Below are positions 4,822 to 30,565 of a stretch of DNA of 31,211 nucleotides, one piece after another (the stretch's first letter is position 1; each line of letters begins with the position of its first letter). The notes under the pieces are model-generated. The model was not told where the DNA came from, ran no database searches, and worked only from the letters and a program-made list of their open reading frames with translations. The translations under genes and the position numbers were made by a program. This DNA comes from a virus. The stretch spans positions 1 to 31,211 of IMG/VR virus record IMGVR_UViG_3300033149_007547, one strand, 5' to 3'.

Positions 4822-4905
4822 TAAACGCAGAAGGCCCTTGATTCCGGCGGCGAAAGAAGCCTCACTGGGGGCGCGTAAAGGGTCGCGTACGTGGGAGATA
4901 TGCGC

Positions 4906-6054
4906 ATGAGCGAAGACCAGAACGAAGCCTCACTAGCTAGCACATGGGCGCGCGTTCCCATCGCTGTCGCGCGCCGCATCAACCGCACTTGCGGAGGCTC
5001 CGCCTTCTATACCTACGTCGTTTTGCGCTCATTCGACAATCCGCAGCAACCCGGCGAGTGCTTCCCGTCGGTAGAGGCCATCGCCGAACGTTCTGGCCTT
5101 TCAGTGCGGTCTGTGAAGCGACATATTGCCAAGCTCAAGGCGGCCGGAGCGCTCATAGCCGAGGGTCGCGGTCGGCACACGAACCGGTACTACTTCCCGT
5201 TTGCCTGCAGGGAGAGGGGCGACTCGGGCACCGGTGTTTCGGGTGCAGGTGATGGGAGCAATGTGGGGACAACGGGTGGCCCCATAAAGGATGTTGTGGG
5301 GCCAACAGGTGGCCTCACAAACGGCGTTGTCAGGACAACGGGTGGCCCCATAAAGGATGATGTGGGGCCAACAGGTGGCCCCACAACCTCGAATGGCGAC
5401 ATTTATGGGGACAACCCTGGGCATTTTGTGGGGCCAACAGGTGGCCTCACACCCCCCCTAACAACCCCCCCTTTACAAGGTGTACCAGACCAGTACCCGA
5501 CCACCACCGCCCCTGTACGTACTGCTACTCGTCAGGATGAGCCGGCCGAGAGCGCCCAACTACCGGTGGTGGTGGTAGAGTATTTGGAAAGGCATCACGT
5601 CGGCAGGGAGACCCTGGACGTATTGCATGGTCAACTCGCGCGCGCCATTGCCCAGCATGGCGAGGAGCCCGTTAAGTGCGCCTTGGCCGAGCTCGCCCAT
5701 GCGCTGGGCAACGGCCAGCGCCCATCCTGCCCGCAAAAGCTGCCGAACTACTTCGCACCGATGCTGGCGCGCCACGTTCGCCAATGCCTGCGCGAACGCC
5801 GCGAGCGGGAGCGCGCCGAAGCCCAGGCCAGGGCCGAGAAAGAGCGCATGAGTCCTCGCGCCTCCTGCAGGCCATGCGAGGCCACGCGGCACCGCGAGCA
5901 CCATAGAAATGGGTCCTCCCTGAGGCCCCTTCGGCCTCGAGGGCGCGCAGAACAACCGCAAAGCCGAGCACACTTTCTTTCGCGTGTGGGATTGCGAGGA
6001 GACCAGAGGAACATCGATACGAGGGCAAGCGCTGCAGATGAACCAGTGGCGTAA
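4906..6054 (+). CDS. Winged-helix phage replication initiator
   Basis: The 382-residue protein begins with a winged-helix domain (about residues 10-100: FPSVEAIAERSGLSVRSVKR, then a KLKAAGALI wing), like phage O/DnaD-type initiators. Residues about 120-180 are an 11-residue repeat (VGPTGG core) encoded by the 33-bp DNA array described separately. A helical C-terminal domain follows, ending in an Arg/Glu-rich helix. The last 60 residues are low in structure and might reflect a shifted frame. ATG 4906 is chosen because GGGAG lies 8 bases upstream; a GTG at 4891 is also in frame. The role is inferred from the domain, the repeat and the neighbouring recombination genes. Confidence 0.8.
   Translation: MSEDQNEASLASTWARVPIAVARRINRTCGGSAFYTYVVLRSFDNPQQPGECFPSVEAIAERSGLSVRSVKRHIAKLKAAGALIAEGRGRHTNRYYFPFACRERGDSGTGVSGAGDGSNVGTTGGPIKDVVGPTGGLTNGVVRTTGGPIKDDVGPTGGPTTSNGDIYGDNPGHFVGPTGGLTPPLTTPPLQGVPDQYPTTTAPVRTATRQDEPAESAQLPVVVVEYLERHHVGRETLDVLHGQLARAIAQHGEEPVKCALAELAHALGNGQRPSCPQKLPNYFAPMLARHVRQCLRERRERERAEAQARAEKERMSPRASCRPCEATRHREHHRNGSSLRPLRPRGRAEQPQSRAHFLSRVGLRGDQRNIDTRASAADEPVA
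5262..5451 (+). repeat. 33-bp iteron-like array inside the initiator gene
   Basis: Copies start at 5262, 5295, 5328, 5361 and 5427, exactly 33 bases apart, with a degenerate sixth copy at 5394. Each copy holds a conserved core in which two arms face each other around ACAGG or ACGGG. The copy at 5361-5385 is a perfect inverted repeat, with arms TGTGGGGCCA and TGGCCCCACA. Others differ by one or a few bases. The period is close to three helical turns. Arrays inside initiator genes are the usual origin layout in lambdoid phages (for example the iterons in lambda O), so this is a candidate replication origin. Confidence 0.75.
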
Positions 6055-6910
6055 AGACATAGCAGCATGGCGCATGGGACAGGGCCTCTACCTGTCCGTC
6101 CCCTTCACGTGGCTGCTGCCCAAGGCGAGGAGGCTAGCGGAGGCGCACGGAGGCCCCGTCTACGCCGGTGGGCCGGCCGTGGACCTCATGCCCGACGTGC
6201 TCGCCGACGTCGCCATCCTGGATGAGCCCTGCCCGGTGCCGCCACTTGCCCTGCACAATCCCCTGGCCACATTCACGACGCGGGGATGCCCAAATCGGTG
6301 CCCGTTCTGCGCCGTGCCGAAGATTGAGGGCGACCTGGTGGAGCTCAACTACTGGCCGGTGCGGCCGGTGGTCTGTGACAACAACCTCCTCGCGGCCAGC
6401 CGCCGGCATTTCGACCGGGTGATCGACCGCCTCAAGGTCCTGCCCTACGTGGACTTCAATCAAGGCCTGGACGCCCAGCTGTTTAGGCCTCACCATGCGC
6501 GGCGAATCGCGGAACTCAAGGCCGCCAAGATGCGGTTCGCGCTTGACGGGGCCGGGGCCGAGGCAGTGGTGGCCGACGCCGTGGCCCTGGCCCGGAAGCA
6601 CGGCCTGCGCGACATCGGCGTATACGTGCTGATCGGCTATGGCGACACGCCGGATTCTGCCTATCATCGGCTCGAGACAGTGCGATCCTGGGGCATCCGG
6701 CCGAATCCCATGCGCTACCAGCCGCTGGATGCGCTGGAGAAGGATAGCTATGTGGCGCCGGGATGGACCGAGCGGGAGCTCCGCCGGATGATGCGCTACT
6801 ACAGCCGCCTGCGCTGGCTCGAGCACATTCCTTACGGGGATTACCGGCCGACAAGCGACGATGGCCAGACCATGCTGTTTGAATCCTCTCGAGTGGGAGC
6901 ATGCCCATGA
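6038..6910 (+). CDS. Radical SAM enzyme, phage-encoded
   Basis: The 290-residue protein has the radical SAM signature CPNRCPFC (Cys84, Cys88, Cys91; CxxxCxxC), which binds the 4Fe-4S cluster used to cleave S-adenosylmethionine. It is preceded by a region ending in FTTRG. Downstream are DNN, DFNQGLDAQL and a YVLIGYGDTP segment, as expected for the beta strands of a partial TIM barrel. No B12-binding or SPASM domain is evident. The start could be ATG 6038, ATG 6074 (which gives MGQGLYLSVPFTW) or GTG 5984; none has an ideal site. The stop overlaps the methyltransferase start, so the two are probably coupled. The substrate is unknown. Confidence 0.85.
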   Translation: MNQWRKDIAAWRMGQGLYLSVPFTWLLPKARRLAEAHGGPVYAGGPAVDLMPDVLADVAILDEPCPVPPLALHNPLATFTTRGCPNRCPFCAVPKIEGDLVELNYWPVRPVVCDNNLLAASRRHFDRVIDRLKVLPYVDFNQGLDAQLFRPHHARRIAELKAAKMRFALDGAGAEAVVADAVALARKHGLRDIGVYVLIGYGDTPDSAYHRLETVRSWGIRPNPMRYQPLDALEKDSYVAPGWTERELRRMMRYYSRLRWLEHIPYGDYRPTSDDGQTMLFESSRVGACP

Positions 6911-8229
6911 AAATCGAAATGCGGGACATCGAGCAAGTGAAGGAGTATGAGGGGAATCCGCGCCGGAACGAGGACGCGGTGGACGCGGTGGCCAACTCCA
7001 TCCGCGAGTTCGGATTCAGGCAGCCCATCGTAGTGGACGAGGAGGGTGTGGTCATCGTCGGGCACGCGCGTCTCAAGGCAGCCGTGAAGCTGGGGCTGAA
7101 GAAGGTCCCTGTCCACGTGGCGCGGGGTCTCAGCCCCGAGCAGATTCGGGCCTACCGCCTGGCCGACAATGCCACGCGGGACCTCTCGGAGTGGGATTAC
7201 GAGCTGCTTCCCATTGAGCTTGGCGCGCTCAAGGATGCCGGCTACGACCTGGAGCTTATCGGCTTCCCTGAGGACGAGCTGGCCGAAATCATGGATACCG
7301 GTGAGCTGAAGGAGGGCCTGACCGACCCCGACCAGGTGCCGGAGCCACCCGATGAGGCAATCACGCGGCGGGGCGACCTGTGGATTCTCGGCGGTCACCG
7401 GCTGCTCTGCGGGGACGCCGGCGAGGCAGAGGAGGTGGATCGCCTCCTCGAGGGCGGGGCCATCCAGCTGGTGAATACGGATCCGCCCTACAACGTGCGC
7501 GTCGAGCCTCGCAGCGCTACGGCCATTGCCGCAGGCCTCAGCTCGTTTGCGCCGGACCCCTACGGGCGCAAGAGGAAAGGCTTGATGCACCACCAGGCCT
7601 TCGATGTTGCCCGCGGCGTCATTGACCCGAGCAAGGCGCGGGCGAAGATGCGCGCCAAAGACCGGCCACTGGAAGGCGACTTCCTCCCGGACGAGGAGTT
7701 CGCCGCGCTGCTCCGGTTATGGTTTGGACAGGTGGCCCGAGTGCTCGAGCCAGGCCGGGCCTTTTACATTTGGGGAGGATACTCGAACGTCGGCAACATG
7801 CCGGCAGCCCTGGCGGACTGCGGGCTCTACTTCTCACAGGCCATCATCTGGGTCAAGGGCCACCCCGTGATGTGCCGCAAGGACTTCATGGGCAACCACG
7901 AGTGGTGTTTCTATGGTTGGCGCGAGGGCGCAGCGCACAAGTTCTTCGGGCCCCCGAACGTGGCCGACGTGTGGGAAGTGAAGAAGACGCCCCCGCAGAA
8001 GATGCAGCACCTGACCGAGAAGCCGGTCGAGCTGGCGGTGCGTGCGATCCAGTACTCAAGTCGCCCGGGCGAAAACGTGTTTGACCCGTTCGGCGGCTCT
8101 GGCTCGACGCTCATCGCATGTGAGCAGGCGGGCCGGCGCTGCTACATGATGGAGGTCGACGCCCTCTACTGCGACGTCATCGTCCGGCGGTGGGAACAGT
8201 TCACCGGCCAGAAAGCTCAACGGGAATAA
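6907..8229 (+). CDS. ParB-like domain fused to beta-class DNA methyltransferase
   Basis: The 440-residue protein has an N-terminal ParB/sulfiredoxin-type domain (residues 1-105: EGNPRRNEDAVDAVANSIRE, then IVVDEEGVVIVGHARLKAA). The methyltransferase domain has motif IV DPPY at 192-195 and the SAM-binding motif FDPFGGSGST at 392-401. Motif IV before motif I is the beta-class order for N6-adenine or N4-cytosine enzymes. Such fusions are common in phages, where they protect DNA or regulate genes. No restriction partner is visible. ATG 6907 is chosen over ATG 6901 because GGGAG at 6895-6899 gives correct spacing. Confidence 0.9.
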   Translation: MKIEMRDIEQVKEYEGNPRRNEDAVDAVANSIREFGFRQPIVVDEEGVVIVGHARLKAAVKLGLKKVPVHVARGLSPEQIRAYRLADNATRDLSEWDYELLPIELGALKDAGYDLELIGFPEDELAEIMDTGELKEGLTDPDQVPEPPDEAITRRGDLWILGGHRLLCGDAGEAEEVDRLLEGGAIQLVNTDPPYNVRVEPRSATAIAAGLSSFAPDPYGRKRKGLMHHQAFDVARGVIDPSKARAKMRAKDRPLEGDFLPDEEFAALLRLWFGQVARVLEPGRAFYIWGGYSNVGNMPAALADCGLYFSQAIIWVKGHPVMCRKDFMGNHEWCFYGWREGAAHKFFGPPNVADVWEVKKTPPQKMQHLTEKPVELAVRAIQYSSRPGENVFDPFGGSGSTLIACEQAGRRCYMMEVDALYCDVIVRRWEQFTGQKAQRE

Positions 8230-11154: not shown

Positions 11155-11379
11155 ATGCTCGGCGTGCGCCTCGAGGTCATCGAAGCGGACCTGGAGGCCG
11201 GCGCCCCGCGCAACGCGGACGGCACTATCAACCTGGTGCACTACGCGGCCTGGCTGAACGTGGCTTGCGAGGGAAGCGAGCAAACGCGTCGCGAGCCCGA
11301 AGGGCGAGTCCCGAAGGGATGCGACGCCGAAGGCGCGCACAACCTGAAGCTTCGCGAGGCCGGCGATGGCGAAGCTTGA
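11155..11379 (+). CDS. Small HTH-like protein before the terminase, possible small subunit
   Basis: The 74-residue ORF has a pattern (LGVRLEVIEADL, then NADGTINLVHYAAWL) that also occurs in the first 58 residues of the terminase ORF that follows. The upstream bases in the same frame would add RALDPAALKPEEAAR, which matches LDPRALRPSELVR of that paralogue, so the real protein probably starts earlier, across a 1-base frame difference near 11109. ATG 11155 itself has GAGGAGG 8 bases upstream. Its position suggests a terminase small-subunit or DNA-recognition role, which is an inference. Confidence 0.55.
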   Translation: MLGVRLEVIEADLEAGAPRNADGTINLVHYAAWLNVACEGSEQTRREPEGRVPKGCDAEGAHNLKLREAGDGEA

Positions 11380-11980
11380 CCCGCGGGCCCTGCGGCCCTC
11401 CGAGCTGGTGCGGCTCCTCAACTCCACTCCGCTCGGCGTCGTCACGGCGGACCACGTCCTGTGGCGGCAGCAGAACCGCGCCGGCTATCGCATCGGCGAC
11501 GGCAGGCGGATTGACCTGGTGCGCTACGTGGCCTGGCTGCTGCGCGAGCGGGAGGCGGCACGCGCGGAGGGCGAGAAGATGAGCGGCTCGGAGGGCTACA
11601 GGGGCGTCAAGGAGCGGGCCAGGGCCAGGGCGGCGCGCCTGAGCCTGGAGGGGCGCGACATAGCCCCCCTGCCCCCGGTTGCCAACCCCGAACGCAAGGC
11701 GCGCGCCTGCGCCGAGCTGCGCCTCTTCTGCGAGACCTACTTCCCGGAGACCTTCTGCCTGCCCTGGTCGGCCGACCACCTGAAGGTCATCAGCCGCATC
11801 GAGCAGGCGGTTCGGCGAGGGGGCCTGTTTGCGCTCGCCATGCCGCGCGGAAGCGGCAAGACCAGCCTCTGCGAGACGGCCTGCCTGTGGGCGGTGCTCA
11901 CGGGCGCCAGGGGCTTCGTGGCGCTCTGGCGCTCATCGGCTCCGATGAGGGACACGCAGAGAACATGCTGGCGGCGCTGA
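11366..11980 (+). pseudogene. Terminase large subunit, N-terminal fragment (frameshifted)
   Basis: This frame encodes an N-terminal HTH-like domain (residues 1-60), a basic linker, and the start of a terminase ATPase: FCETYFPETF and WSADHLKVI, then Walker A in MPRGSGKTS (about 159-167). It reads correctly to GARGFVAL (residue 187) and then drifts into unrelated residues (WRSSAPMRD) because of an 8-bp tandem duplication at 11919-11934. Removing one copy restores a single frame of about 769 residues with the next entry. Terminase pumps DNA into the prohead through the portal; in this state the ATPase would be cut off after Walker A. Confidence 0.85.
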
Positions 11981-13683
11981 AGAGCGAGCTTGAATGCAAC
12001 GACCGGCTGCTGGAGGACTTTCCGGGCGCGCTCTACCCCATCCGGTGCCTGGAGGGCATCGCAAATCGCTGCGCCGGGCAGCTCTACGAGGGCCGCCGCA
12101 CGCACATCGAGTGGACGGCGAAGGAGATCGTCTTTGCGACCATACCGGGCGAGCCGGCGAGCGGGGCCATCATCAAGGTGGCGGGCCTGACCGGCCGCAT
12201 CCGCGGCATGAAGCACAAGAAGCCCGACGGCTCGAGCGTGCGACCGGACCTGGTGGTGCTGGACGACCCTCAGACGGACGAGTCGGCGCGGAGCCTCTCG
12301 CAGTGCCAGACGCGCGAGAGCATCCTGGCGGGAGCGGTGCTGGGTCTTGCCGGCCCGGGCAGGAAGATAGCCGGCTTCATGCCCTGCACGGTCATCCGGC
12401 CCGGCGACATGGCGGACCGCATCCTGGACCGCGGGAAACACCCGGAGTGGCAGGGGGAACGAATGAAGATGGTCTACCGCTTTCCTGATAACCAGGCGCT
12501 CTGGGAGCGCTATGCGCAGATCCGCACCGACGAGCTCCGCGCCGGCGGGGACGGAAGGAAGGCCACGGAGTTCTACCGCCTCCACCGCGCCGAGATGGAC
12601 GCCGGCGCCGAGGTGGCCTGGCCGGAGAGGCACAATCCGGATGAGCTGAGCGGCATCCAGCACGCCATGAACCTGAAGCTCAGGGACGAGGCGGCCTTCT
12701 GGTCTGAGTACCAGAACGAGCCCATGCCTGAGGAGCTCCCAGAGGAGGTCGAGGCGCTCGATGCTGACTCCATAGCCGCCAAACTCAACGGGCGCGAGCG
12801 GGGTGCGGTGCCGGAGGGATGCACCCTCCTGACCGCCTTCGTGGACCTGCACCAGAAGGTGCTGTTCTGGGCCGTCTGCGCCTGGGAGGCGGACTTCACG
12901 GGCTACGTGGTGGACTACGGGGCGCACCCCGACCAGGGGCGGCCCTACTTTACCACCCGCGACGTGCAACGCACCCTGGGGCGGGTCTACCGGGGGAGGG
13001 GCCTTGAGGGGGCTATCTACGCCGGGCTGGAGAGGCTCTGCGCGGAGCTGCTGGGGCGCCAGTTCAAGCGGGACGATGGGGCGCTGATGCGCATCGAGCT
13101 GTGCCTGATAGACCAGGGCTGGCAGCGGGACCTGGTGCATCAGTTCTGCCGCCAGTGCGCGCACGGCGCGGCGCTCATGCCAGCCCGCGGCACGGGCATC
13201 ACGGCCTCGCAGAAGCCCATCAGCGAATACGACCGCAAGAGGGGCGACCAGATAGGGCTCGCCTGGTGGATACCGGGGGTGCGCGGGCGGCGGGCCCTCA
13301 GGCACGTCGAGGTGGACACGAACTGGTGGAAGACCTTTGTGCACGAGCGCCTGGCGACGGCGATGGGGGATCGGGGCTGCCTGTCGCTGTGGGGCAGGCG
13401 CCCGGAGCGGCATCGGCTCTTCGCCGAGCACCTGACGGCGGAGTATCGGGTGCGCACGGAGGGCCGGGGGCGGACGGTTGACGAGTGGAAGCTGCCGCCC
13501 TCGAAGCCCGACAACCACTGGCTGGACTGCCTGGTGGGCTGCGCGGCGGCGGCGTCGATGCGCGGGGTCCATCCGCCGGGGATGGCGCCGCAGGCCCCGG
13601 CGGGGGGGATGCGGCGGAAGGTGAAACTCTCAGAGCTCCAGCGGAGGAAGCGGCTTGAACGGGCGCGCGCGGGCGGCAGATGA
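11887..13683 (+). CDS. Terminase large subunit, main ATPase/nuclease part (GpA-like)
   Basis: The authentic sequence starts at about 11935 (IGSDEGHAENMLAALKSE); the preceding residues of this ORF are out-of-frame. Visible motifs are Walker B in LVVLDDPQTDE, and a nuclease domain with TAFVDLHQK, LCLIDQGWQRD and the C-terminal DNHWLDCLVGCAAAAS, a layout seen in GpA-type terminases. The nuclease cuts concatemers during packaging. The piece lacks Walker A, which lies in the other frame, so alone it should not power packaging. If the duplication is an assembly error, the gene is intact. It overlaps the zinc-ribbon gene downstream. Confidence 0.85.
   Translation: MGGAHGRQGLRGALALIGSDEGHAENMLAALKSELECNDRLLEDFPGALYPIRCLEGIANRCAGQLYEGRRTHIEWTAKEIVFATIPGEPASGAIIKVAGLTGRIRGMKHKKPDGSSVRPDLVVLDDPQTDESARSLSQCQTRESILAGAVLGLAGPGRKIAGFMPCTVIRPGDMADRILDRGKHPEWQGERMKMVYRFPDNQALWERYAQIRTDELRAGGDGRKATEFYRLHRAEMDAGAEVAWPERHNPDELSGIQHAMNLKLRDEAAFWSEYQNEPMPEELPEEVEALDADSIAAKLNGRERGAVPEGCTLLTAFVDLHQKVLFWAVCAWEADFTGYVVDYGAHPDQGRPYFTTRDVQRTLGRVYRGRGLEGAIYAGLERLCAELLGRQFKRDDGALMRIELCLIDQGWQRDLVHQFCRQCAHGAALMPARGTGITASQKPISEYDRKRGDQIGLAWWIPGVRGRRALRHVEVDTNWWKTFVHERLATAMGDRGCLSLWGRRPERHRLFAEHLTAEYRVRTEGRGRTVDEWKLPPSKPDNHWLDCLVGCAAAASMRGVHPPGMAPQAPAGGMRRKVKLSELQRRKRLERARAGGR
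11919..11934 (+). repeat. Exact 8-bp tandem duplication inside the terminase gene
   Basis: TGGCGCTC occurs twice without a gap, at 11919-11926 and 11927-11934. Because 8 is not a multiple of 3, the duplication shifts the reading frame. With one copy, the sequence reads GFVALIGSDEGH in a single frame, which joins the two terminase pieces smoothly. Confidence 0.9.
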
Positions 13684-13975: not shown

Positions 13976-14506
13976 TCACTTGGCCTGCTCGTGTTTCCGG
14001 CCTCGGGTGTGCTTACGCCACCGTTGTTGATACGCCGCGCAAAGATGCCTGGGGAGGCGGCTACCAGACTGAAGCATCCTGTCGATGGCATCTATCCCGT
14101 CCTGGGGGGTGACAATTCGCCCGCGTACCAATTGCTCCAGAACCCAGAGGGTTCCGTGAACTTCGATCCCCTCGGACTCTGCGGTTTTCCTCAAGTCTGC
14201 ATCCCCTGTCAGTACGACGGCATTGAGCCTTCGTGCAAGAACGAGCAATGACAGGTCGATTCGCCCAGCTCGCGGGTACCGCTCGCCCAGTTCAATCACT
14301 CTCAGGATTTCGCCTCCGGTGAGATCTTCTTCCCGGAGCCCCATTCGTTTGAGCGCCTGAGCGTCCGGCCTGCGCAGTTGCTGTACGACGAGGTCTGGCG
14401 CGACGAAATCGAAATGCATACGGAAGACCGCCTTCAGCAGCCCGGCGTGGTGAAGGTCAATCCATATGTTCGCGTCAATGACAGCTACTGGGCGTGGCTG
14501 AACCAT
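13976..14506 (-). CDS. PIN-domain nuclease, second in the window
   Basis: The 176-residue protein opens with VAVIDANIWIDL (Asp11), typical of PIN nucleases, and later has RIDLSLLVLARR (Asp84) and VLTGDADLRKTAE (Asp102, Asp104). The usual middle Glu position looks like Gln (APDLVVQQL), with Asp38 nearby, so catalytic activity should be checked. It overlaps the 3' end of the XRE/ImmA-IrrE gene by 32 bases, so the two are co-expressed. This fits known two-gene modules in which an XRE-metalloprotease protein controls a PIN toxin. It is unrelated in detail to the PIN gene at 8292. Confidence 0.8.
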   Translation of the reverse strand: MVQPRPVAVIDANIWIDLHHAGLLKAVFRMHFDFVAPDLVVQQLRRPDAQALKRMGLREEDLTGGEILRVIELGERYPRAGRIDLSLLVLARRLNAVVLTGDADLRKTAESEGIEVHGTLWVLEQLVRGRIVTPQDGIDAIDRMLQSGSRLPRHLCAAYQQRWRKHTRGRKHEQAK

Positions 14507-15545
14507 ACCGATCGAATTCCTGTCGGAGCTTTTCTAATTTCTCGCCCAGCAGCTCGGCCACACGCGAGGGCGAGGCGTAGCGTTCGGCATAGGCTATTGC
14601 CCCCAGCGCTTTCATTCGCTGAGGTTCTTCGGCAGGAACCTCAGGACCGGGCTCTTCCTTGTGCCAACCACGGCGTCTGAATTCTTTGAACAGTCTGCGG
14701 CTGTACGCCTGCTTTATGATGCCAAGGTCGCCAGCGCGGTATATCCACGCCTGCATGCTCAGGCCGTACTTGCGCTTCAGGCGCCGCAACTCCCAAAGCT
14801 CCAGGGACTGCCGGTTTGGCCCCAGTTCCTGAAGAGCGGCTGACCTGGGCACCAGGAAGGCTGCCGCAAAACGAAAAGCCACTTTCTCCGGGTCCAGCCG
14901 GGCCGCCGGCTTCAAGAGCAGGTGACCGAGCTCGTGGGCCGCGCTCAGGCGCTGGCGATCGCCCGGAACATCGCGCTTTATGACGATGACATACTGGCCG
15001 GCTTCGGTCTCGAAAGTCAGGCCGTCGAATCCTACAGATGCGTCGACGGCGCATACTCTTATCCCCATGCCTTCCAGCACCTCTACGACAGAGTTGATCG
15101 GGCCCAGACCCAGCTTCCACGCCTCTCGGAGCTCGACCGCGCGGTCCTCCGCCTCGTCCATTGAATGGACCAGACGAGGGAAAGACTTCGGCATCACGAA
15201 GCGCTGGTAATAAGACCCCGGCAGGAAGCTTTCCAGTTCGAGGTACCGCTCGAGCCACTCCCGGACTCTTTCCTCGATAGCCTGGCGGTCTTTCTGGCGT
15301 AGCCGAGAGCAATGGGCCCGGTAGGCCGGTTGTATGACCCGAGGCATGGGTGCGGGCCTGAGGAAGAAGTCCACCTGGACGTCCACGGCCCGAGCTATCC
15401 TCAGCAGGACGGCCGAACCAGGCACGGCTTTGTCGTTCTCGTACTTGGAGATGGACTGTTTGGTCACACCGACCTTCAGTCTTAGCTTTTCCTGGCTTAG
15501 GCCGGCTATTCTGCGAGCCGCTCGAATTCGCTCTCCGATACTCAT
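14475..15545 (-). CDS. XRE regulator fused to ImmA/IrrE metallopeptidase
   Basis: The 356-residue protein has an XRE-type helix-turn-helix at residues 5-58 (AGLSQEKLRLKVGVTKQSIS core). The ImmA/IrrE (COG2856) domain has a HELGH zinc site at 204-208 and a following Glu (Glu220, in EKVAFRFAAAFLVP) as the likely third ligand. Proteins of this kind bind their own promoter and can be inactivated by, or cleave, a regulator after a signal such as DNA damage. The ATG at 15545 follows AAGGAGG, so it is preferred over a start 51 bases upstream. The PIN gene follows with overlap, suggesting a regulator/antitoxin and toxin pair. Confidence 0.9.
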   Translation of the reverse strand: MSIGERIRAARRIAGLSQEKLRLKVGVTKQSISKYENDKAVPGSAVLLRIARAVDVQVDFFLRPAPMPRVIQPAYRAHCSRLRQKDRQAIEERVREWLERYLELESFLPGSYYQRFVMPKSFPRLVHSMDEAEDRAVELREAWKLGLGPINSVVEVLEGMGIRVCAVDASVGFDGLTFETEAGQYVIVIKRDVPGDRQRLSAAHELGHLLLKPAARLDPEKVAFRFAAAFLVPRSAALQELGPNRQSLELWELRRLKRKYGLSMQAWIYRAGDLGIIKQAYSRRLFKEFRRRGWHKEEPGPEVPAEEPQRMKALGAIAYAERYASPSRVAELLGEKLEKLRQEFDRYGSATPSSCH

Positions 15546-15559
15546 TGTCTCCTCCTTTC

Positions 15560-15599
15560 CGGTTGACATGGTATCTGTTTTTGCCGCGTTTGTCAACCG
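15560..15599 (-). promoter_or_regulatory. Promoter and autoregulatory operator of the XRE/PIN module
   Basis: On the minus strand, TTGACA (forward 15591-15596), a 17-base spacer and TACCAT (forward 15568-15573) form a good sigma-70 promoter. A 9-bp inverted repeat frames it: CGGTTGACA at 15560-15568 and TGTCAACCG at 15591-15599. One arm covers the -35 box, and the other lies at the start site. This is the expected arrangement for repression by the XRE protein encoded immediately downstream. Confidence 0.7.
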
Positions 15600-28993: not shown

Positions 28994-30565
28994 ATGGGCG
29001 ATACGTTCCGGAAGGTCCGGGATGGCGAGGAGCTGAAGATACCGGCCGGCGCCTACAACGCCTTCATCGACGCCGCCCTTGCGCATCAGAAGTCCCAGAA
29101 CATCCTGTCCGCCTCGGAGCCGCCGGGCCGCCAGGCAACCGTCGCCCTCATCCTGAACGATACGGGCGCCGACCGCGACCGGTTCGACATCCTCGGCATC
29201 GCCGGGCCCGTGTTTGATGCGAACGCTGAGCACGTGGTGCTGCAGGGTGTCAGCCCCTCCTGCGAAGGCTACGCAGGACGGTTCGGGGTGCTGCTGCAGC
29301 CCCTGCCGGCGGGGAAGATCGGCCGCGCGGTCGTGGCCGGGGTCTGCGCCGTCCGCCTCTACGTGGAGGATGAGGCCACGGCGGACTATGCCGAGGCCAG
29401 CTCCAGCTACTCTTCGCTGCGGGCGGGCGCGAGCGGCTCGGCCTTCGTGCTCTGGCGGGACGGCGGCACCGGCACGCAGTGGGCCATCGTGCGCCTCGGC
29501 AACCTTGACCCGGACTTCATCTGCCCCTCACCATCGCCGAGCCCCTCACCTTCACCATCGCCGTCCCTGAGCCCCAGCCCGTCGCCGTCGCCAAGCGCGA
29601 GCATCTCTCCGTCGCCATCGCCAAGCGCGAGCATCTCTCCGTCGCCATCGCCAAGCGCGAGCCCCAGCCCGTCGCCGTCCCCAAGTGGGAGCATCTCACC
29701 GTCGCCGTCGCCGAGCGCTGCCCTACCGGACGAGCTGCACGTGACGCTCTGCGTGATGGGCGGAACCTTCGACGCCTTTGAGGGCGATCACACGCTGACG
29801 CGAGTCGAGCCAGGCGGCCTCGTGTGGCGTGTGCAATACACCGAGCCAATGGAGGCGGAGATCGAGCTCTGGTGGGCCGATGCTGTCGGCGGGTCATGGT
29901 ACGTGGCGCTCCGCGTGCCGGACGACGGCTGCTCGCTCATCTGGTGGAAGCGGGACCCGAGTGGCGCCGACCCGTGGGACTTCTACGACCGCGCGAGCTG
30001 TCAGGACGCGGGATGCCTGGACGAGGAGAGCTGCGAGGTTTCGGCTGACGCAACCTGCGAGGTGACGCTGGCCGGCTCGGAATGCCCGGTGGAGCCGAGC
30101 CCGTCAGCGAGCCCGTCGCCCTCGCCCAGCGCCAGCCCCAGCCCATCGCCATCTCCATCGCCGAGTCCAAGCCCGAGCCCCTCACCGTCGCCGTCTCCGA
30201 GCCCAAGCCCGCCTGGCTGCCCGACTGACTGCTCGGGCTGCGGAACCTATCAGCTCGACACCACCGGTTGCCCGGTGGGTGGGGCCACGCACGATGTTAT
30301 TTACCTCGAGGACTGCACCGTTGATTGCACCGATATCCTCGCAATGCAGCCCGATTACTTCGCCGGCTGTGATCCCGAGGACAATCGATGGAACGTGTGC
30401 ACGAGGGGAACCATAATGCCCGTCGTCTGTTGCCACTACGAGGACACGAATCACCCGTCGAACTGCCCCGATGGTTCCTACGACGTGCTCCTGGTGAGCA
30501 ACTGCGGCGGCATGGGGTGCCCTGGCGGCACCTGCGATGAGACTGTGGATGTGTACTCTGTGTGA
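28994..30565 (+). CDS. Fibre-like virion protein with Ser-Pro repeat linkers and Cys-rich end
   Basis: The 523-residue protein has an N-terminal domain (residues 1-175; FRKVRDGEELKIPAGAYNAF) probably attached to the tail. Two Ser-Pro repeat linkers (about 178-242 and 367-407) flank a beta domain with LCVMGGTFDAFEGDH. A C-terminal Cys-rich domain (CPTDCSGCG, then several Cys pairs) may form disulfide bonds in the extracellular particle. Ser-Pro repeats make extended, flexible stalks. A receptor-binding or fibre role is inferred. The DNA of the linkers is repetitive and prone to length change. Confidence 0.7.
   Translation: MGDTFRKVRDGEELKIPAGAYNAFIDAALAHQKSQNILSASEPPGRQATVALILNDTGADRDRFDILGIAGPVFDANAEHVVLQGVSPSCEGYAGRFGVLLQPLPAGKIGRAVVAGVCAVRLYVEDEATADYAEASSSYSSLRAGASGSAFVLWRDGGTGTQWAIVRLGNLDPDFICPSPSPSPSPSPSPSLSPSPSPSPSASISPSPSPSASISPSPSPSASPSPSPSPSGSISPSPSPSAALPDELHVTLCVMGGTFDAFEGDHTLTRVEPGGLVWRVQYTEPMEAEIELWWADAVGGSWYVALRVPDDGCSLIWWKRDPSGADPWDFYDRASCQDAGCLDEESCEVSADATCEVTLAGSECPVEPSPSASPSPSPSASPSPSPSPSPSPSPSPSPSPSPSPSPPGCPTDCSGCGTYQLDTTGCPVGGATHDVIYLEDCTVDCTDILAMQPDYFAGCDPEDNRWNVCTRGTIMPVVCCHYEDTNHPSNCPDGSYDVLLVSNCGGMGCPGGTCDETVDVYSV
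29581..29716 (+). repeat. 30-bp tandem repeat encoding a Ser-Pro linker
   Basis: Units of 30 bases begin at 29581, 29611, 29641, 29671 and (partial) 29701. The first two are almost identical and encode a PSPSPSASIS-type decapeptide. The wider Ser-Pro block extends from 29524, and a second, less regular block lies at 30095-30212. Exact repeats in a coding frame allow in-frame length changes by slippage. Confidence 0.75.
30095..30212 (+). repeat. Second Ser-Pro repeat block in the fibre-like gene
   Basis: A low-complexity stretch built from CCG/TCG/AGC-type codons encodes about 38 residues of alternating Ser and Pro with occasional Ala. It separates the central beta domain from the Cys-rich C-terminal domain. 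The hexanucleotide texture is less exact than in the first block. Confidence 0.65.

Follow-up and report, generated by a model that had tools for sequence, protein, structure and literature searches.

An array of 33-bp repeats lies inside the replication initiator gene of the phage held as IMG/VR record IMGVR_UViG_3300033149_007547, and the question it raises is whether these repeats are a property of the protein, of the DNA, or of both. The complete record, 31,211 bp long, was analysed and is referred to here as the window. An earlier note on this DNA had proposed that a winged-helix initiator binds the array as an origin within its own gene, as lambda O does. This reading, in which the binding is putative, is well supported by the anatomy of the gene and by comparison with other initiators, and we put the probability that the phage uses the array as a lambda-O-type replication origin at roughly four in five.

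The initiator ORF, for which an alternative GTG start at 4891 is possible, matches Pfam HTH_36 (E 5e-11, residues 32-81), phrog_270 (E 3e-12) and phrog_391, 'replication initiation O-like' (E 2e-10). An AlphaFold model of low overall confidence (mean pLDDT 51) places a winged helix up to residue 97 (helices at 33-44, 56-63 and 67-79, strands at 84-88 and 93-96), followed by a disordered stretch (100-216) and a helical domain (221-315). The array follows directly after the winged-helix part, downstream of the putative DNA-binding domain, and in this low-confidence model the residues that it encodes fall wholly within the predicted disordered linker. The parts of the gene are as follows.

4906-6054, plus strand: O-like replication initiator gene, with a winged helix-turn-helix (wHTH) N-terminus, a disordered linker and a helical C-terminal domain
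4954-5196, plus strand: wHTH coding part, residues about 17-97, putative iteron-binding domain
5262-5451, plus strand: iteron array, a putative origin that encodes linker residues about 119-182
5566-5853, plus strand: helical C-terminal domain, residues about 221-315, common to the initiator of the relative L026 (below)

The C-terminal domain may serve in recruitment of a partner or helicase. PDB sequence and fold searches with the initiator returned only generic wHTH regulators and no significant E-value, while in a viral structure library the annotated O protein of phage Min27 ranked third (E 0.003), with an overall model too weak to rely on. The final 65 or so codons of the initiator (5850-6054) do not look like coding sequence and extend into the radical-SAM ORF; the gene may really stop earlier, or a frameshift may be present in this stretch.

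RecE-like, RecT-like and Holliday-resolvase-like genes precede the initiator. The next gene after it encodes a radical-SAM protein (6038-6910), which lies between the initiator and a ParB-domain methyltransferase (phrog_9298), and the ParB_N-methyltransferase gene itself (6901-8229) begins 0.9 kb past the initiator gene. The window ORFs that were scanned, part of the full set, include no recognisable helicase loader like lambda P. Elsewhere in the window, terminase large subunit families are matched by two ORFs, 11366-11980 and 11887-13683, that overlap in different frames, as would be expected of a gene with a frameshift or split near 11.9 kb; the minus strand carries an HTH and ImmA/IrrE-peptidase regulator at 14475-15596 and, beside it, a 176-aa ORF (13976-14506) with no PHROG match; and a tail-region protein has long Ser-Pro repeats in 30- and 36-bp units (29579-29718, 30110-30211).

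The 33-bp repeat family from 5262 onward was returned de novo by a repeat finder and by Tandem Repeats Finder. It comprises five dyads, all starting on a 33-bp grid, for which complementary pairs were counted at offsets 3-12 from each centre, together with one isolated half-site.

5262-5286, unstranded: iteron 1, dyad centre 5274, 8/10 arm pairs
5295-5319, unstranded: iteron 2, dyad centre 5307, 9/10 arm pairs
5328-5352, unstranded: iteron 3, dyad centre 5340, 6/10 arm pairs, left arm degenerate
5361-5385, unstranded: iteron 4, dyad centre 5373, 10/10 arm pairs
5406-5415, plus strand: isolated left half-site TGGGGACAAC
5427-5451, unstranded: iteron 5, dyad centre 5439, 9/10 arm pairs

Iteron 4 reads TGTGGGGCCA-ACAGG-TGGCCCCACA, with arms at 5361-5370 and 5376-5385 around a 5-base spacer, and is thus the perfect 10+5+10 inverted repeat that had been reported. 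The five copies on the 33-bp grid were also confirmed, but the degenerate sixth that had been counted with them is the half-site: no copy occurs at 5394, where the grid would place one, and TGGGGACAAC lies 10 bp off the grid, 43 bp beyond iteron 4, with iteron 5 following 23 bp later. It also differs in codon phase, being in phase 2 where the dyad copies are in phase 1. Since the same 10-mer is present in 4% of synonymous resamples of this stretch, the half-site serves as supporting evidence that is weak alone. An 18-bp consensus, TGGGGMCAACNGGTGGCC, with up to 3 mismatches, has 12 matches in the window against 0.41 expected, and 10 of the 12 fall inside the array, on both strands of each dyad.

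Over four contiguous copies, for which the reported 11-residue VGPTGG repeat is correct, the array encodes VGPTGG, VGTTGG or VRTTGG with an 11-residue period. The DNA pattern could therefore be a by-product of a repeat that matters at the protein level only, a Gly/Thr/Pro-rich linker formed by recent tandem duplication; the in-frame 33-bp units encode a peptide repeat in what is predicted to be a disordered linker, and several of the surveyed linkers described below are likewise peptide repeats. This explanation was weighed by holding the protein fixed and resampling codons from the phage's own usage. The summed dyad matches were 44, compared with 32.0 +/- 2.1 in the resamples (0/2000 reached the observed value), a free scan that picked the five best dyads gave 40 versus 33.8 +/- 1.6 (0/300 nulls), and the DNA repeat score was 40 versus 9.5 +/- 3.0 for synonymous permutations (0/100). 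Repeats and dyads in the array thus exceed every protein-preserving codon shuffle, which agrees with the proposal that the array serves both as a protein linker and as DNA. Recent tandem duplication could account for part of the repeat excess, but it does not explain the dyad of the best single copies or the half-site that keeps its DNA in another codon phase.

Whether other initiator genes are built in this way was surveyed in about 900 genomes of three phyla, to which an Actinopolyspora, an Ardenticatenia and a planctomycete genome belong, and in 17 further genomes located via pattern hits, initiators being picked by phrog_270 or phrog_391. The 96 ORFs tested, with 100 synonymous shuffles each, include lambda O, the window initiator and that of L026, and 92 ORFs from the same loci, with 60 shuffles each, served as controls. 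A repeat family beat all synonymous shuffles in 47/96 initiators versus 8/92 control ORFs, and z exceeded 4 in 42 initiators versus 4 controls; lambda O, the positive control, scored z 17, with its annotated iterons recovered. A second sample consisted of 22 viral contigs found only through the HTH, by a search from a three-row HTH alignment (a ten-row HTH-domain alignment was too divergent for a scan of the collection), and 20 of the 22, some of them near duplicates, had z>4. In-gene arrays are therefore found in about half of the 96 surveyed initiators and in nearly all of the 22 viral ones, and this design is frequent in related initiator genes from several bacterial phyla. Literature searches, which subscription papers mostly lay outside, led to lambdoid phages and SPP1 and to no description of the spread of in-gene dyad arrays, whose breadth may be known already.

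Consensus dyad symmetry was significant (at most 10/200 column shuffles) in 28 of the 42 arrays, among which the window has the highest consensus dyad score. These counts, and the fact that lambda iterons are themselves inverted repeats, overturn the suggestion that inverted-repeat iterons are unusual. Iteron sequences differ from gene to gene, most of the 42 arrays having their own, and iterons are more alike where the wHTHs are more alike (Mantel r 0.25, 0/1000 permutations), a correlation that is partly shared ancestry because both lie in one gene. The initiator ORF of one surveyed locus, L190, ends in a long G run, read as poly-glycine, at the contig end; this run is likely an assembly artefact, and the locus does not enter the pooled statistics on spacing and AT content.

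Pooled spacings (159 from 55 arrays, window and lambda excluded) are commonest at 21-24 bp and form two more groups, at 33-36 and 44-45 bp, with few at 26-31 bp. Above 27 bp they show a period near 11 bp (p=0.0002). The reading frame is broken by 66% of the spacings, and 45 of the 55 arrays have at least one that does so. Together, the period and the frame-breaking spacings indicate that the sites keep to one helix face whatever the codons, and a repeat of purely protein-level origin is accordingly judged unlikely. The window spacings of 33, 33 and 33, then 43 and 23 bp via the half-site, fit the spacing classes of the relatives and place the window's iterons on one helix face. Comparing repeats and period in related initiators, as had been proposed, gave this outcome: in-gene arrays are common, their iteron sequences differ and their spacings are about 22, 34 or 44 bp. 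The strict 33-bp period is unusual in that the commonest spacing is 21-24 bp, but it has company in a second class, given as 32-36 bp, to which the locus L223 (33, 32, 34, 32, 22) adds another three-turn case. The window's period is of this three-turn class, which is a minority but is not unique.

The 50 bp that follow an array on its 3' side are richer in AT by 12.3 +/- 1.5 points (40 arrays). The change is only 0.7 points upstream and 0.1 beyond 100 bp downstream, and initiators lacking an array show a rise of 2 points at corresponding offsets. Lambda fits this pattern, its AT-rich tract being situated on the right of its iterons (PMC6022878). The corresponding stretch of the window is

5452-5501, unstranded: expected unwinding region, 44% AT versus 37% in the gene

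The window's rise is 7 points, where relatives average 12 and lambda has 20. There is no notable local minimum of stability, and this slight AT-rich stretch is the weakest part of the window's origin case. The cumulative GC skew of the window, put forward earlier as a check for an origin, has no extremum near 5.3 kb and gave no origin signal.

Dyads are typical of operators, and wHTH folds resemble transcription regulators, so that the initiator or another repressor might bind the array to control transcription and not the start of replication. The array nevertheless lies deep inside the gene, with no further copies near the gene's 5' end, and the AT-rich stretch that follows related arrays, as in the lambda ori, argues against an operator, which we consider quite improbable. 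Slightly less credence still is given to an RNA-level element, in which hairpins in the initiator mRNA would control its own translation or termination. The array RNA does fold better than shuffles (z -4.75), and four of the imperfect arm pairs are G-U compatible, but any DNA dyad folds as RNA, the arms of many related iterons are too short for likely stable hairpins, and spacing classes set by helical turns make no sense for RNA.

By sequence, no homologue of the initiator was found in the viral contigs or annotated phages searched. Scans with the iteron gave 18 stretches in genome contigs and 1 in viral contigs, each a single match and by estimate about the number expected by chance, and no array was found by this motif. 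The nearest relative found, L026 (IMGVR_UViG_3300033153_013473), was reached via the neighbouring methyltransferase, which is 76% identical. Its initiator, syntenic and ahead of the same methyltransferase, is 28% identical to that of the window over the alignment, and shares with it a wHTH, the C-terminal domain and in-gene dyad iterons. The L026 iteron, however, is AGCCCTGTCAAATTGGGAGGGCT, of unrelated sequence, at about 5960, 6002 and 6024; the spacings of 42 and 22 bp put the third copy in another reading frame, and the VGPTGG peptide repeat is absent. Indeed, that peptide repeat is kept in no relative found, whereas L026 keeps a DNA pattern of other sequence. That the ParB-domain methyltransferase recognises the array as a partition or methylation-linked site, an idea suggested by the position of its gene so soon after the initiator, can be all but dismissed, because a methyltransferase so similar accompanies a wholly different iteron and a divergent initiator: the sites follow the initiator, not the methyltransferase.

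An origin of the lambda-O type would place the window beside well-described systems. The lambda ori lies in gene O, as in the Stx phages P27 and 933W, with iterons just after the wHTH part, as in the window. In lambda the iterons are inverted repeats of 18-19 bp, each bound by O as a dimer (PMC7466680, PMC6022878), and they code for a flexible linker that joins the DNA-binding and P-binding parts of O (PMC6022878). The window iterons are likewise linker-coding inverted repeats near helical multiples, dimer binding being known for lambda. They differ in sequence, which is unrelated, and in dimensions, with 25-bp dyads, 10-base arms and a 33-bp period compared with 18-19 bp at about 20-24 (lambda spacings are 20, 24 and 23 bp), and the window has a weak AT-rich tract and no recognised P-like gene. 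In SPP1, oriL lies in gene 38, with gp38-bound repeats inside the protein's own gene and an AT-rich unwinding element (PMC6316719). SPP1, likened here by description, is unlike the window in having a second origin, oriR, and repeats that are described as direct. The dyads and their location inside the initiator gene also set the window apart from iteron plasmid origins. Those of the RepE, RepA and RctB type have helically phased initiator-binding repeats beside an AT-rich region, but these are direct repeats outside the rep gene and are bound by monomers.

From this anatomy a mechanism can be proposed in which initiator dimers would bind each 25-bp dyad via two winged helices. With five sites phased at about 33 bp, or three turns, and the extra half-site in register, the dimers would lie on one face of the DNA, where their stacking may build an O-some-like complex that opens the DNA by straining it, probably just 3' of the array. 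The C-terminal domain of the initiator would then recruit helicase machinery. Because such an origin is within coding sequence, the array would also be translated, as a disordered linker tolerant of repeats. A wider proposal is offered tentatively, as one that we lean against: that among wHTH phage initiators across phyla, in-gene, helically phased dyad origins are general and fast-diversifying, with iterons co-evolving with the wHTH, and that the window represents a geometric subclass whose long dyads, spaced by three turns, build an O-some with a pitch of its own that opens the DNA without a marked AT-rich tract.

For uncultivated phages and prophages with wHTH initiators, these findings mean that the origin can often be read from the initiator gene, by the rule of dyad repeats after the HTH at 2-, 3- or 4-turn spacing. 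Applied to many phages, without any need for cultures, the rule yields predicted origins together with initiators matched to their sites, and such pairs offer a means of studying how a DNA-binding domain and the sites inside its own gene change together.
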